Source of the DNA: Herpetosiphonaceae bacterium
GTDB lineage: Bacteria > Chloroflexota > Chloroflexia > Chloroflexales > Kallotenuaceae
NCBI GenBank assembly: GCA_036374795.1
Contig: DASUTC010000197.1
Coordinates: 1-46,632, forward strand
DNA: 46,632 nucleotides
Reading direction: 5' to 3'
The translations under genes and the position numbers were made by a program. This document shows, piece by piece, positions 8,530-46,101 of this stretch (its first letter is position 1; each line of letters starts with the position of its first letter). The notes below the pieces were generated by a model. It had not been told where the DNA came from and searched no databases. It worked only from the letters and a program-made list of their open reading frames with translations.

Positions 8530-8605
8530 GCCAACATAGCTCAGCTGGTAGAGCAGCTGTTTCGTAAACAGCAGGTCGTGGGTTCGAGTCCCACTGTTGG
8601 CTCCA
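8530..8605 (+). tRNA. tRNA-Thr(CGT)
   Basis: A 76-nt cloverleaf with a 7-bp acceptor stem GCCAACA (8530-8536)/TGTTGGC (8595-8601), D arm GCTC..GAGC, anticodon arm GCTGT-TTCGTAA-ACAGC giving anticodon CGT (reads ACG, Thr), a T arm containing GGTTCGAGTCC, discriminator T and encoded CCA. The single-gene unit has its own promoter and terminator. Confidence 0.95.
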
Positions 8606-40636: not shown

Positions 40637-41749
40637 ATGCGGGATGCGCTGATCGGCTATTTGGAGAGCGTCACGTTTGCGACGGAGCTCGCCGCGTGGG
40701 CGGAGATCGAAACATGCTCGTATGATCCGGTCGGCCTGGCGCAGTTTGCCGAGGTACTGACCGACCGATTCACCCAGCTCGGCGCGGAGGTAGAGCCGGT
40801 CGGCGAGATGCATCTGCTTGCGCGCTGGTCCGGCGTCGGCAAGCCGCTGCTGCTGCTCGGCCACTTCGACACAGTCTATCCACGCGGCACGCTGGCGGAG
40901 CAGCCGGTCGAGCGGCGCGGCAACAAGCTCTTCGGCCCCGGCGTGGTCGACATGAAGGGCGGCCTGCTGATGGGCTGCGTGGCGATCGAGGCGCTGCAAG
41001 CCATGAAGCGCTTCTGGCGGCGTCCGATCTGGTTTCTCTGCACCTGCGACGAGGAGATCGGCAGCCCAACGTCGCGGCGGCATATCGAGGAGCTTGCGGC
41101 GCAATCCGAGGCGGCGCTGGTGCTGGAGGCGGCGGCGAACGGCGGTGCGCTCAAAACCGCGCGCAAGGGTGTCGGCCTCTACGAGCTGTCGATCACGGGC
41201 CGCGCTGCGCACGCGGGTGTCGCGCCGGAGCAGGGCCGCAACGCGCTGCTGGAGCTGGCGCATCAGATCATCTGGCTGCAAAGCCTGAACGATGCCGAAA
41301 GCGGCACCACGGTGAATGTCTGCACGGCCAGCGGCGGCACGACGGCCAACGTGATCCCGGCGGAGGCGCGCGCCGAGATCAATTTGCGGGTGCGCACCTT
41401 TGCCGAGGCGGAGCGCATCGCCCAGGCGCTCGCGGCCCGGCAGCCCGTGGGCGAGGACGTGACGATCAGCTTCAGCGGCGGTCTTAACCGGCCACCGATG
41501 GAGCGCACCGAGCAGATCGGGCGGCTGTACGAGCACGCGCGGCGTCTGGCAAACGAGCTAGGCTTCGACATCGACGAGGCCGCGACGGGCGGCGGCTCCG
41601 ACGGCAACTTCACGGCGGCGATCGGCGTTCCCACGCTCGACGGCCTGGGTCCGGTCGGCGGCGGCGCGCACGCGCTCACCGAGCATGTCAACCTGGATGC
41701 ATTCGTGCCACGAACGGCCCTGCTGGCGCGGCTGCTCGAAACGCTGTGA
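40637..41749 (+). CDS. M20 metallopeptidase, CPG2 (glutamate carboxypeptidase)-like
   Basis: A 370-aa di-zinc exopeptidase, with AAGGAG nine bases before the ATG. Zinc and catalytic residues are visible in LLGHFDTVYP (His76, Asp78), GPGVVDMKGG (Asp105), CDEEIGSPTS (Glu139/Glu140), and GLGPVGGGAHALTEHV. LYELSITGRAAHAGVAPEQG belongs to the dimerisation lid, and ATGGGSDGNFTAAIGVPTLD is strongly CPG2-like. Such enzymes remove C-terminal glutamate from small peptides or folates. There is no signal peptide, so it should act in the cytoplasm. It is divergent from the hutI operon; together they may recover glutamate from L-Ala-L-Glu and similar compounds (inference). Confidence 0.87.
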   Translation: MRDALIGYLESVTFATELAAWAEIETCSYDPVGLAQFAEVLTDRFTQLGAEVEPVGEMHLLARWSGVGKPLLLLGHFDTVYPRGTLAEQPVERRGNKLFGPGVVDMKGGLLMGCVAIEALQAMKRFWRRPIWFLCTCDEEIGSPTSRRHIEELAAQSEAALVLEAAANGGALKTARKGVGLYELSITGRAAHAGVAPEQGRNALLELAHQIIWLQSLNDAESGTTVNVCTASGGTTANVIPAEARAEINLRVRTFAEAERIAQALAARQPVGEDVTISFSGGLNRPPMERTEQIGRLYEHARRLANELGFDIDEAATGGGSDGNFTAAIGVPTLDGLGPVGGGAHALTEHVNLDAFVPRTALLARLLETL

Positions 41750-41789
41750 TGTGCGTCGCCGCTCCGACGATTGCGAGAGGAAGCCGCTC

Positions 41790-42575
41790 ATGCGTCGGCT
41801 GATCGGGCTGCTGCTGGCGATCTATCTGTTCATCTATGTCTTTGCGGTGCCGATGCTGATGTTCGCGCTGGTGCCGTCCTGGGGCACGTGGATGGGCGGC
41901 TTTCTGCTGATCATGCAGGGCAGCCTGCTGACGCTGTGGCTGGCGGCTAACGCTGGCGGGCGTGGGCTGCTCGCCGCCGCGTGCATTGCGATGCTATCCT
42001 GGGCGGTGGAGCATATCGGCGTCACGACGGGCGTGCCGTTTGGTCGGTACAGCTACACCGACGTGCTGGGCTGGAAGCTGGGCGGCGTGGTCCCGCTGCC
42101 GATCCCGTTTGCCTGGCTGCTGGTCGTGCCCGCCGCGATCGGCGCTGCGCGGGCACTGCTCCCGGCATCCGCGCGCCGCCCCGGCTGGCTGCTGATTGGC
42201 GCGCCGCTGCTGGCGCTGGCGCTCGATCTGCTGCTGGAGCCGGTCGCGGCCTACGTCACGGGCTACTGGCACTGGCTGGACAGCGGGCCATACTACGGCG
42301 TGCCGACGGCCAACTTTATCGCCTGGGGAACAACTGCGCTGGTGCTGACGCTGCTGACGCTGGCGCTGTGCGGGCGGCGGATCGTCGATGCGGCGGTGCT
42401 GCCTATGGTGCCCGCGCTGCTCTACATGCTCAACCTGTTCCAGTTCGCGCTGGTCGATCTGGCGTATGGCTACGTGCTGCCCGCGCTGCTGGGCCTGATC
42501 GTCCTGCTGATCGCGGCGTGGCGCTGGCCGTTTAGGGGCAGGGGGAACAAGCGAACGAGCGAGCAACAACCTTAA
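41790..42575 (+). CDS. cruF: CruF-type carotenoid biosynthesis protein (DUF422)
   Basis: A 261-aa integral membrane protein with about seven spans, starting at ATG 41790 (GAGAGGA about 9 nt upstream), 40 nt after the peptidase gene. Family motifs are AVEHIGVTTGVPFGRYSYTD and PFAWLLVVPAAIGAARALLP, then LDLLLEPVAAYVTGYWHWLD and YGVPTANFIAWGTTALVLTL. The EH and DxxxEP motifs are those of the CruF/bisanhydrobacterioruberin-hydratase family, which hydrate the 1',2' double bond of carotenoids before glycosylation. The final GRGNKRTSEQQP is encoded by a repeat tract and is not family sequence. Its stop codon shares TTAA with the stop of the convergent acyltransferase gene. Confidence 0.85.
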   Translation: MRRLIGLLLAIYLFIYVFAVPMLMFALVPSWGTWMGGFLLIMQGSLLTLWLAANAGGRGLLAAACIAMLSWAVEHIGVTTGVPFGRYSYTDVLGWKLGGVVPLPIPFAWLLVVPAAIGAARALLPASARRPGWLLIGAPLLALALDLLLEPVAAYVTGYWHWLDSGPYYGVPTANFIAWGTTALVLTLLTLALCGRRIVDAAVLPMVPALLYMLNLFQFALVDLAYGYVLPALLGLIVLLIAAWRWPFRGRGNKRTSEQQP

Positions 42576-42608
42576 GCCTGTGTGCGTCGGTTCGTTGGTT
42601 CGTTGGTG
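42535..42608. repeat. Intergenic-family repeat tract, copy 12 (within two 3' ends)
   Basis: GGGGGAACAAGCGAACGAGC (plus strand) faces GGTTCGTTGGTTCGTTGG. The two halves are inversely related, and each encodes the C-terminal tail of the gene entering it, cruF from the left and the acyltransferase from the right. Confidence 0.75.
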
Positions 42609-43345
42609 CTTCTCCGGCGCTTCCCCCGCACCCGATCCCAGACGACGTTGACCGAGGCGCGGCCCTGCAAGATCGTGCGGTAGTGTGCGGTCGTGCCGTC
42701 GATCGTGTCGGCGTGAAGCTGCTCGACTTCACAGAACAGGCGGCGGTCCATCTCGCGTTGCAGCGCTTTCACATCGTACTCGCCCGACACGACGTGAGCG
42801 GGACCGAGCCGCACCAGCGCTTCGGGCCGCTGCTCGTCCAAAAACTCGAAGCGCAGCGCCATCGGGATGCAGCGCACGGGCGCGGCGCGTCTGGCGATAT
42901 GCGCGGCACCCGCATACGTCACCAGCGGACGGCGATCATTGGGCGTGATCAGGCCCTGGGGAAAGATCCAGAGCGCGCGGCCAGGATGGCCTCGGAGCAG
43001 ATCGGCGGCGTACGCTACGGAGCGCAGGCCCTCGCGTGGATCATGGCGATCCACGGAGAAGACGCCGCAGTAGCGAAAGAAGCCGTAGCGGGCAAGCTGC
43101 GGCTCCTCCATCATCAAATATCCGGGGCAGCGCCAGTGCTCACGTGCGAGCAGAAAGGCGATATAGCCGTCCCACCACGACGGATGGTTGGCATAGATCA
43201 GCGCGGGCAGATCGGGCGTGAAGCCTGGCTCGGCGCTCCACAGCGCCACCCGCTGAAAGGCGCGGCGCAGCGCTGGGCGTACCAGCGTGCGATAGATCAG
43301 CGCCTCGATCAGTGGGGTTTTTCGCGCGGTCAGCCGTGGCTGCAT
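42572..43345 (-). CDS. PlsC-like 1-acylglycerol-3-phosphate acyltransferase family
   Basis: A 257-aa protein from ATG 43345; the eight codons upstream in the open frame (to 43369) translate repeat sequence and are rejected. The acyltransferase motif I is NHPSWWDGY (HX4D, His54/Asp59). Motif III reads FPQG (128-131) where most PlsC enzymes have FPEG, so Glu is replaced by Gln. GLRSVAYAADLLRGHPGRAL and VRCIPMALRFEF follow the usual order. The last residues (STNEPTNRRTQA) come from a repeat tract. It may acylate lysophosphatidate, or, given the neighbouring cruF, a carotenoid glycoside (as CruD does); the second idea is inference from context only. Confidence 0.75.
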   Translation of the reverse strand: MQPRLTARKTPLIEALIYRTLVRPALRRAFQRVALWSAEPGFTPDLPALIYANHPSWWDGYIAFLLAREHWRCPGYLMMEEPQLARYGFFRYCGVFSVDRHDPREGLRSVAYAADLLRGHPGRALWIFPQGLITPNDRRPLVTYAGAAHIARRAAPVRCIPMALRFEFLDEQRPEALVRLGPAHVVSGEYDVKALQREMDRRLFCEVEQLHADTIDGTTAHYRTILQGRASVNVVWDRVRGKRRRSTNEPTNRRTQA

Positions 43346-43525
43346 GAAGGTCCAAGTTTCAGGTTCCAAGTGCCAAGTTCAAGGCTCTCCGTTTGTTCCT
43401 TTGTGCGCCCAGAGCGCACCCGGTTCTTTTGTTCTTTCGCTTAGTTCTTGGTGTGCCGGGCGCCATGCCGGGGTACCATGCCCAAAGGGCACCCGGTCTG
43501 GCACCCGGCTCTTTGTTCTCGGTTA
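43344..43525. repeat. Intergenic-family repeat tract, copy 13, with two palindromic modules
   Basis: Begins with TTTCAGGTTCCAAGTGCC and CAAGTTCAAGG (7-nt type), then TTTGTTCCTTTGTGCGCCCA, AGCGCACCCGGTTCTTTTG (module, diverged), and later GCCGGGGTACCATGCCCAAA, GGGCACCCGGTCTGGCACCC and GGCTCTTTGTTCTC (module, well kept). This is the longest copy; the second module is almost identical to that at 29205-29255. Confidence 0.85.
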
Positions 43526-44290
43526 AGAAGCGCCGTCGATTGCGTTAGTCGGGAACTTGAGCTGACGCACCAGCGCGGGTAGGATCTCGCCCGACTGGCC
43601 GATCAGCGACCAGTCGGCCATGACGCTGATCGCGGTCTGCTCGGTATTGATCTCGACCACGTTCGCGCCCATGCGCTTGGCAATCAGCGGCAGCCGGGCC
43701 GCAGGCTGAACCACCGCCGAGGTGCCGATCGACATGAACACATCGCAGGCCGATGCGGCGTCGATGGCCGTGCGTAGCGCCTGCTCGGAAATGCCCTCGC
43801 CGAACCAGACCACATCGGGCCGCAGCGGGCCGCCGCAGTAGGGGCAGCGCGGTGGGATCTCGCCGGTTTCAGGCCACCACGAGACGGGATGCCCCTCCTC
43901 GAAGCATTTGGTACGCGCGATGTTGCCGTGCAGCTCGATCATGTCGCGGCTACCGGCGAGCCAGTGCAGGCCATCGATATTTTGTGTCACCAACAAGAAC
44001 GTCGGCAGCGCCTGCTCCAGATCGACGAGCGCGTAGTGGGCTAGATTGGGACTGGCCTCCTGGATCAGGCTTCGCCGCCAGGCATACCACTCCCAGACCA
44101 GGCGCGGATTGCGGGCGAACGCCTGCGGTGTTGCCAGCTCGCGCGGATCGTACTGTGCCCACAGGCCGGTCTGGGCTTCACGAAACGTCGGCACGCCGCT
44201 CTCGGCTGAAACACCAGCGCCGGTCAGCACGACGACACGCTCGGCAGACGCAAGCTGGGCGATCAAATCTTCGGGAATATGCACGGGCAT
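43523..44290 (-). CDS. cobB: Sirtuin (Sir2) NAD-dependent protein deacylase, class III-like
   Basis: A 255-aa enzyme that removes acyl groups from lysine using NAD. ATG 44290 is preceded by TTGGAG seven bases upstream. NAD-binding GAGVSAESGVPTFR is at 24-37, TQNIDGLHW at 102-110, and the catalytic histidine is His121 (ELHGNIARTKC). Tyr69 and Arg72 (WYAWRR) form the Y-x-x-R pair that binds acidic acyl groups in SIRT5/CobB, so desuccinylation is possible. Of the four zinc cysteines only three are present (Cys129, Cys149, Cys152; RTKCFEEG and PRCPYCGG). It lies 39 nt after the pseudokinase gene on the same strand, so the two may be cotranscribed. Confidence 0.92.
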   Translation of the reverse strand: MPVHIPEDLIAQLASAERVVVLTGAGVSAESGVPTFREAQTGLWAQYDPRELATPQAFARNPRLVWEWYAWRRSLIQEASPNLAHYALVDLEQALPTFLLVTQNIDGLHWLAGSRDMIELHGNIARTKCFEEGHPVSWWPETGEIPPRCPYCGGPLRPDVVWFGEGISEQALRTAIDAASACDVFMSIGTSAVVQPAARLPLIAKRMGANVVEINTEQTAISVMADWSLIGQSGEILPALVRQLKFPTNAIDGAS

Positions 44291-44329
44291 AGGCTGCTCC
44301 AACCTCGTTAGTGATGATGTGAAGGATAG

Positions 44330-45835
44330 CTACTCTTGTTCAAGATTATTCTGCAAATTGGCAATCCAGCCGCTCGTCGCGTTGTCGAGGGTGATCACCG
44401 GCAGCCACTCATACGGCCCGCCCTGCGGATCGGGCTGGGCAACGCCAATCTGTTGAAGACGCACGCCCGGCTCAAGCACGCGAATCGGCGGGTTATCCTC
44501 GGTAGCGCCTGGCCGCTCCCGCAGATTTGTGGGCGCGATCACACGGTACGACGCAACCACGCTACCGGGATCGCGGAGCCAGGACGGAATAAAATCGTTC
44601 GGGTCGGGCAGTTGGCGGCTGATCCACTCGCCCACGTCGATCTGCTGAATCCTGCCCGTGGTGTAGTCGACGGCGTAGCGCAGGCCAAGGTAGCCGCCGT
44701 ACAGCAGCAAAAAGACGAAAAGCAATTGCAGGCTGCGCTTGATCAGCGCGCGCTGGCAGCCCTGGCGGCGAACCTCGCGGCGGACGTGGTGCTGGATCTG
44801 CTTATCGAGCGTGCGCTGGTCGAGCGGCGCTGGTCTGGGGCGGACAACCGTGCGCGTCTCCGGCGGCGGCTCGGCGATCACTGGCGGCGGCGGCGGCGGC
44901 GCGATAGCAGGCGCGGTAGCTGTCTGCGCGCGGCGACGCGGCAGGCGCAGGCGGGAGGAGCGCTGCTCGCTGATGGTCGTCGGATCGTTCCAGGCGTGAG
45001 GCAGCGCGGCGAGCCGCCCGGTCTGGGCGGTGGTCGCGTCCGCATAGTGATCGAGGGCACGGCCAAAATCGGTGGGCGTTGGGTAGCGCATGCCGGGATC
45101 GACGGCGACCGCTTGCGCCACGATGCGGTCAAGCTCCGGCGAGAAGATTGCCGGACGCGCCTGTGAGATCGTTGGAAGGTCGCCCTGACGCTGCTGCCGC
45201 GCAATCTCGTCGGGGGTCGCGCCGCCGAATGGCCGGTGCCCGACGAAGGCTTCCCAGGCCAGGAGGCCGAGCGCATACACGGTAGTGGCGGGTGATGGCG
45301 GCCCGCCCGTAAGGCGCTCCGGGGCACGATACGGCGCAAGCTCGAGCGGGATCTGGCTCGTCGGAACATGCCAGCTCTCGACCAGCAATGTCCGGCCACC
45401 GGGCAGCAGCCAGACGTTGCGGCTGCTGATCGGCGGGTGGGGCACGCCCTGGGTCTGGGCCAGCGCCACCGCCCCGACGATCGTGCGGACGGCGCTGAGC
45501 GCCTCGCTGGCGGAGATCATGCCAGCCTCGGCCAGCGAGCGGCCTGCAATATCTTCCGTCACCATGTAGGGCCGCCCGCCGACATCGCCCGTATCGTAGA
45601 CGTCCAGCAGGCCGGGATGCGTGCGCTGCGCGCCGCGCTGAGCTTCTTCTTCAAACCGCTGGCGCAGATTCGGCTGCTGGACCAGCTCGGCGCGCAGCAG
45701 GTGGACCAGGACCTTCCGCTTGAGGCGCTCGTCTTCGGCGTGATAGACCGTCGCCAGACGGCTCTCGCCCAGGCGGGCTAGAATCCGGTAGCGTCCATGC
45801 AGTAGCGGTGGAGTTGTCGGCGAAGCAGCGCTCAT
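44330..45835 (-). CDS. Membrane-anchored pseudokinase with C-terminal SH3 domain
   Basis: A 501-aa protein with a PknB-type kinase fold but no catalytic residues. The ATP-loop glycines are lost (LGESRLATVY, 22-31), the Lys of VAxK is His45 (VLVHLLR), HRDLKPEN has become HPPISSRN (133-140), and DFG has become ESW (153-155). The structural APE is kept (171-173), and YALGLLAWEAFVGHRPFGG fits helix F, so the fold is probably intact. A Pro-rich juxtamembrane linker (about 300-340) leads to one membrane span (369-387) and an extracytoplasmic bacterial SH3 domain (about 430-500) with APTNLRERPG. It may bind wall material outside and partner proteins inside, as a signalling scaffold. It starts at ATG 45835 behind a good promoter. 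Confidence 0.88.
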   Translation of the reverse strand: MSAASPTTPPLLHGRYRILARLGESRLATVYHAEDERLKRKVLVHLLRAELVQQPNLRQRFEEEAQRGAQRTHPGLLDVYDTGDVGGRPYMVTEDIAGRSLAEAGMISASEALSAVRTIVGAVALAQTQGVPHPPISSRNVWLLPGGRTLLVESWHVPTSQIPLELAPYRAPERLTGGPPSPATTVYALGLLAWEAFVGHRPFGGATPDEIARQQRQGDLPTISQARPAIFSPELDRIVAQAVAVDPGMRYPTPTDFGRALDHYADATTAQTGRLAALPHAWNDPTTISEQRSSRLRLPRRRAQTATAPAIAPPPPPPVIAEPPPETRTVVRPRPAPLDQRTLDKQIQHHVRREVRRQGCQRALIKRSLQLLFVFLLLYGGYLGLRYAVDYTTGRIQQIDVGEWISRQLPDPNDFIPSWLRDPGSVVASYRVIAPTNLRERPGATEDNPPIRVLEPGVRLQQIGVAQPDPQGGPYEWLPVITLDNATSGWIANLQNNLEQE

Positions 45836-46024: not shown

Positions 46025-46101
46025 GGCCCCGTAGCTCAGTGGATTAGAGCACTGGTCTTCGGAACCAGGTGTCGGGGGTTCGAATCCCTCCGGGGTCGCC
46101 A
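46025..46101 (+). tRNA. tRNA-Arg(TCG)
   Basis: A 77-nt cloverleaf. The acceptor stem is GGCCCCG (46025-46031) with CGGGGTC (46091-46097), including one G-U pair. The anticodon arm CTGGT-CTTCGGA-ACCAG gives anticodon TCG (codon CGA, Arg). The T arm contains GGGGGTTCGAATCCC. Discriminator G and CCA are encoded (46098-46101). Confidence 0.94.

Follow-up and report, generated by a model that had tools for sequence, protein, structure and literature searches.

At one end of the window, the 46,632-nucleotide stretch of DNA analysed here, three genes run in the same direction and encode a membrane-bound kinase-like protein, a Sir2-family deacylase and a PlsC-type acyltransferase (Table 1). The membrane span of the kinase-like protein, already proposed in a preliminary description of this DNA, is supported by hydropathy and is followed by about 110 C-terminal residues. 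A comparable hydropathy peak occurs in 65 of 69 relatives, with a few proteins carrying the peak at another position or being truncated. The same description had placed an SH3 domain outside the cell, and nearly all C-termini of the family match the Pfam model SH3_3, although that of the window protein itself stays below Pfam detection. By analogy with the topology usual for such kinases, the kinase-like domain would lie inside the cell and the SH3-type domain outside. Directly upstream of the gene, on the other strand, is a tRNA-Arg gene (tcg, positions 46025-46101), and a tRNA-Thr gene (cgt) is found at 8530-8605. Within 41685-43369, a CruF-type carotenoid gene (PF04240) converges with the PlsC-type acyltransferase gene; a PlsC gene recurs at the same place among members of the window's family, so the two may take part in an acyl step on carotenoids or lipids.

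Table 1. Features of the window and of related loci in other genomes (L numbers), with the evidence for each.
Feature	Position	Strand	Evidence or remark
Pseudokinase gene (501 aa: kinase-like domain, Pro-rich linker, one membrane span, C-terminal SH3-type domain)	44330..45835	minus	
Kinase-like domain, residues 16-251	45083..45790	minus	Pfam PF00069, 39.6 bits; PknB at E 1.6e-46 by family profile
Degraded glycine loop LGESRLATVY	45743..45772	minus	Arg invariant, 70/70 orthologues
Beta-3 VLVH vs VAIK (Lys to His, Ala to Leu)	45701..45712	minus	Orthologue alignment
HPPISSRN vs HRDxKxxN	45416..45439	minus	Orthologue alignment
ESW vs DFG (acidic-x-Trp in the family)	45371..45379	minus	Orthologue alignment
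APE motif, retained	45317..45325	minus	Orthologue alignment
Thr272, directly after last helix; candidate phospho-site	45020..45022	minus	Thr in 61/69
Membrane span LLFVFLLLYGGYLGLRYAV, residues 371-389	44669..44725	minus	Hydropathy
C-terminal SH3-type domain, predicted outside	44351..44563	minus	27/29 family C-termini match PF08239
Sir2-family deacylase, catalytic residues intact	43523..44302	minus	PF02146, 175.6 bits; 27 bp downstream of pseudokinase
PlsC-type acyltransferase	42572..43369	minus	PF01553; third gene of the co-directional run, window's own family only
Pseudosirtuin example	L083 4881-5657		Catalytic Asn, often His, lost
Pseudosirtuin example	L094 5578-6315		Catalytic Asn, often His, lost
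Pseudosirtuin example	L067 5229-5972		Catalytic Asn, often His, lost
Pseudosirtuin example	L075 4107-4844		Catalytic Asn, often His, lost
Zinc-ribbon Ser/Thr kinase	L119 4348-5616		Beside pseudosirtuin-GNAT pair
Zinc-ribbon Ser/Thr kinase	L120 4959-6716		Beside pseudosirtuin-GNAT pair
Zinc-ribbon Ser/Thr kinase	L121 1935-3536		Beside pseudosirtuin-GNAT pair

By homology, the kinase fold of the protein is secure, because its match to the Pfam Pkinase model lies above the cut-off of 31.7 bits and because a sequence search of the PDB returns Mycobacterium tuberculosis PknB as the top match among solved structures, both for the single protein (E 1.3e-26) and, far more strongly, for a profile of 31 family sequences. 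AlphaFold2 models, built on three or four sequences, reach pLDDT values of 39 and 46, and Foldseek with the latter lists PknB first, at an rmsd near 14 Å; predicted structure is therefore left out as evidence for the fold. The retained fold put forward in the preliminary description is thus borne out by the sequence matches.

When the window protein is aligned with PknB, VAVK becomes VLVH, HRDVKPAN becomes HPPISSRN and DFG becomes ESW, while the glycine loop GxGxxG reads GESRLA and the activation segment is shorter and lacks the activation-loop threonines of PknB. We searched 82 genomes of the order for orthologues, recognised one in about 75 and aligned 70; genomes with no full-length orthologue are mostly incomplete, some showing only fragments at contig ends. 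Assignment is clear in most genomes, with E values of 1e-54 to 1e-275 for the orthologue and only about 1e-30 to 1e-40 for the next kinase. The beta-3 Lys, the HRD Asp and the catalytic-loop Lys are each kept in none of the 70, all three being present in the five motif-intact kinases that served as controls. What replaces them is itself constrained: His (55), Asn (7), Ala (6) or Tyr (2) stands for the beta-3 Lys, Pro for the HRD Asp in 68, Pro for the HRD Arg and Ser for the residue following the catalytic-loop Lys in all 70, Trp for the DFG Gly in 68 of 69, and Leu for the VAIK Ala in 97%. Arg26 of the glycine loop, Pro134 and Ser138 are invariant, and the family shares the signature LGxxRLAxVY, VLxHLLR, HPPISSxN and [ED]xW. 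The protein thus combines a kinase fold with loss of the VAIK Lys and the HRD Asp, which defines a pseudokinase in the general sense, and these losses are conserved across orthologues.

Not every kinase feature has gone. The APE Glu and its Arg partner are kept in 69 of 69 orthologues, as the preliminary description had it for APE. That description also took every catalytic motif to be lost, and the glycine loop, beta-3 Lys, HRD Asp and DFG are indeed changed as it described; however, the catalytic-loop Asn persists in 53 of 70, although it is lost in several genera, and the DFG Asp position stays acidic in 68 of 69 (Glu in 50, Asp in 18). The alpha-C Glu is not constant (53 of 70). Helix F, described as intact, is present, but its Asp, normally invariant in kinases, is kept in only 2 of 69. 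To judge from the alignment, ordinary phosphotransfer would be excluded in the family because the catalytic base is absent in every orthologue. ATP binding is unlikely, since the Lys is lost and the VAIK Ala is replaced by a bulky Leu that would fill the adenine site.

All catalytic motifs being changed might suggest a decaying pseudogene or a local loss, which is exceedingly improbable given an open frame and a signature common to four family-level groups, and dN/dS values of 0.07-0.20 between relatives (Nei-Gojobori, where computable). A local pseudogene is rejected by the same motif losses across the 70 aligned orthologues, and the pseudokinase call consequently survives the refutation envisaged for it, relatives with intact catalytic residues, as none has the beta-3 Lys or the HRD Asp. 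On this sequence evidence, the pseudokinase gene is not dying but belongs to a family whose new signature is under selection, and its product is probably a functional signalling scaffold. Its distribution is narrow. The family profile exceeds 300 bits solely in genomes of the order, other kinases of the class reaching no more than 211 bits within the order and 196 bits beyond it; among 400 genomes of the phylum, no member was found outside the order, and all 40 strong matches lie inside it. General kinase homology accounts for the PADLOC matches of the pseudokinase (PD-T4-6, MAD6), and a defence role was rejected; PADLOC gave no match for the sirtuin, the GNAT acetyltransferase or the nucleotidyltransferase of the cluster.

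The gene neighbourhood was read in 69 genomes, those whose readable DNA downstream of the pseudokinase extends to about 900 bp or more, the gene order of two being taken from coordinates. In 67 of them the next same-strand gene of the set encodes Sir2 (41) or GNAT (26), and both are present in 28. Since Sir2 or GNAT adjoins the pseudokinase so widely, the sirtuin neighbour pointed out in the preliminary description for the window is a trait conserved across the order, not a chance feature of one genome. The fullest gene order is pseudokinase–sirtuin–pseudosirtuin–GNAT–nucleotidyltransferase-like; the window's own family has pseudokinase–sirtuin–PlsC acyltransferase, and family f3 has pseudokinase–pseudosirtuin–sirtuin. 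In L028, L043 and L083 the stop of some cluster genes overlaps or abuts the start of the next, and genes upstream of the pseudokinase are conserved within subgroups only. Linkage is not universal: the Sir2 gene is absent from the cluster in about a third of genomes, members of the window's own family have GNAT at another site, have a weaker match or yielded none, and two genomes (G056 and G070) keep the pseudokinase with the remaining cluster genes located elsewhere. The nucleotidyltransferase-like protein that follows GNAT in many genomes (L060 2386-2928; L086 10749-11303) has a weak PF14907 match, below cut-off, and in f3 and some f2 genomes the pseudokinase is preceded by a SAM methyltransferase whose N-terminus has a hydrophobic stretch (L094 8151-8909; L060 5092-5763).

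The window sirtuin has the features of a Sir2 deacylase, with GAG..FR, QNID (the QNxD motif), the catalytic His and the zinc cysteines all intact, and scores above the cut-off for the NAD-dependent deacylase subfamily. A pseudosirtuin, in which the catalytic Asn is lost and often the His as well, occurs in the cluster of 27 of the 67 genomes. In f3, most of f4 and two f2 genomes the cluster copy has lost the Asn, QNxD having changed to QAxD, QTxD, QSxD or LAxD; the f4 copies and that of one f2 genome additionally have Asn in place of the catalytic His. A single origin of the pseudosirtuins, seemingly supported in a first tree, failed once taxa were added: the rooted tree rejects one pseudosirtuin clade (AU p 0.010) and needs three changes, and for this reason the phylogeny indicates that catalytic loss in the sirtuins arose more than once. 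The pseudosirtuins are under purifying selection (dN/dS 0.04-0.15). In eleven of eleven g34 genomes there is a single Sir2 match, a pseudosirtuin wherever the sequence was read; there it therefore cannot merely modulate an active sirtuin.

A GNAT match at E ≤ 1e-15 is found in 76 of the 82 genomes, with one clearly best copy in most. The protein encoded in the clusters of relatives matches Pfam GNAT at 50.6 bits and conserves the CoA pyrophosphate loop (G-x-G-x-E) and a Tyr, as expected of a GNAT enzyme. Its closest PDB relatives are spermidine N1- and aminoglycoside N6′-acetyltransferases, so it may act on a substrate other than protein lysine. Three genomes, G056, G070 and G061, have a pseudosirtuin–GNAT pair away from the pseudokinase, which G061 did not yield; beside the pair lies a divergently placed, motif-intact Ser/Thr kinase with a zinc-ribbon N-terminus, an HRD-type loop (YRDMKPSN) and DFG. 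Acylation genes thus recur next to a kinase fold, here an intact one.

We tentatively favour a reading in which the membrane-anchored pseudokinase scaffolds or gates a reversible protein-acylation module, while rating its chances at somewhat under even. Having lost phosphotransfer and probably ATP binding, the pseudokinase would act as a protein-binding platform, and together with the outside SH3-type domain it would anchor and gate a dedicated module of an NAD-dependent Sir2 deacylase and a GNAT acetyltransferase, with the pseudosirtuin as a possible reader or regulator in many lineages. The scaffold would bring writer and eraser to the membrane, or gate them there, and the SH3-type domain would provide the envelope input; we infer both the physical contact among the products and the envelope state as the signal. 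This reading would explain why a surface without catalytic function is conserved, why the protein is anchored in the membrane and why acylation genes are its constant neighbours; at the level of sequence it draws on the residues that are lost and the constant ones that replace them, on domain layout, on purifying selection and on conserved linkage. Against it stand the g34 genomes, where the only Sir2 found is a pseudosirtuin and no active eraser is paired, the clusters that lack Sir2 or (in the window's family) a nearby GNAT, the separated partner genes of G056 and G070, and the consideration that predicted shared transcription could mean co-regulation only. A bolder version, which we regard as rather doubtful, takes the dead kinase and the often dead sirtuin, proteins of different descent, as non-catalytic sensor and scaffold subunits of a dedicated membrane GNAT across the order, such that pseudoenzymes of two modification systems would jointly control lysine acylation.

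The tail and neighbours of the pseudokinase bear on a different, MviN-type role. In M. tuberculosis, PknB phosphorylates the C-terminal tail of the MviN pseudokinase and FhaA is recruited (PMC12599244). Of the non-catalytic membrane pseudokinases studied by experiment, MviN is the nearest precedent. An active PknB-like kinase could likewise phosphorylate the protein studied here, for example at Thr272, so that FHA proteins are recruited and the cell wall controlled, the acylation genes being merely co-transcribed. The broad layout is the same, a Thr directly follows the last helix in 61 of 69 relatives, frequently in a TxRL context, the SH3-type domain is predicted outside, and many other kinases are encoded in the window genome. 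The neighbours, however, are acylation genes and not cell-wall or FHA genes, and Thr272 is replaced by another residue in several lineages; such an adaptor seems unlikely, if well worth keeping in view.

Some kinase-like proteins transfer groups other than phosphate: SelO transfers AMP and SidJ glutamate. An altered pocket that still binds a nucleotide and transfers a non-phosphate group would suit the acid at the DFG Asp position, the frequent catalytic-loop Asn and the invariant glycine-loop Arg, and it has a precedent in POMK, described as ATP-binding through a basic glycine-loop residue paired with an acid (PMC12599244). Yet the beta-3 Lys is absent everywhere, the VAIK Ala is Leu, and both the alpha-C Glu and the loop Asn are kept only in part, which leaves a repurposed enzyme improbable. 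The wider interest of the family is that it connects a kinase fold with protein acylation directly and in a testable way. Its signature is fixed, each genome has a single copy and the neighbours are constant; the order is probably Chloroflexales and would in that case include cultivable bacteria, and the neighbouring sirtuin, active, pseudo or lost, forms a natural series by which the roles of the parts are separable.

Of the 42 families of bacterial Ser/Thr kinases in a 2025 review, seven are rich in pseudokinases, and the review stresses that few bacterial pseudokinases have a known function (PMC12599244). Compared by text and table, none of these seven shows the HPPISS or ExW signature, and the text of the review makes no mention of Chloroflexi (PMC12599244). 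We found no prior description in the open-access literature of a Chloroflexus pseudokinase, of a sirtuin/GNAT/kinase operon, or of a "pseudosirtuin" by that name. Like ActPs3, the actinobacterial family of MviN (Rv3910) in M. tuberculosis, the pseudokinase has lost all three motifs, has a shortened activation loop and carries its membrane span after the domain, but the published ActPs3 signature VALT / Lsidhpsr stands against VLVH / HPPISSRN in the window and VLxHLLR / HPPISSxN in the family, and the neighbours differ (PMC12599244). The mycobacterial MviN parallel drawn in the preliminary description thus holds for the general layout and fails for the signature. GLW pseudokinases also lack all three motifs and have a C-terminal membrane span, but they are proteobacterial, with HRD changed to GLW and the Lys to Leu or Trp, whereas here HPP is found in most of the 70 orthologues and His replaces the Lys. 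The beta-3 Lys to Arg change of DYD / ActPs2 is likewise absent, the 70 having His, Asn, Ala or Tyr and no Arg. EssB/YukC is similar by analogy as a membrane-bound, non-catalytic scaffold, but belongs to type VII secretion, and the stretches read here contain no secretion genes. With PknB, StkP and PknA the family shares the kinase fold (residues 5-257 in the best PDB matches), a single membrane span and an outside sensor domain, but lacks the catalytic residues and the alpha-F Asp, has a shorter activation segment devoid of the PknB activation Thr, and carries an SH3-type domain in place of PASTA; the PknB PASTA kinase model (NF033483) scores 153 bits against a cut-off of 450, with no PASTA match. 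Pat/CobB-type reversible acetylation similarly pairs a lysine acetylation writer (GNAT) with an eraser (CobB/Sir2), and the window sirtuin keeps all its catalytic residues, but here the pair is linked at the gene level with a pseudokinase and, in many genomes, with a pseudosirtuin. We class the sequences as a probable new family of bacterial pseudokinases, one whose set of genetic partners is unusual.
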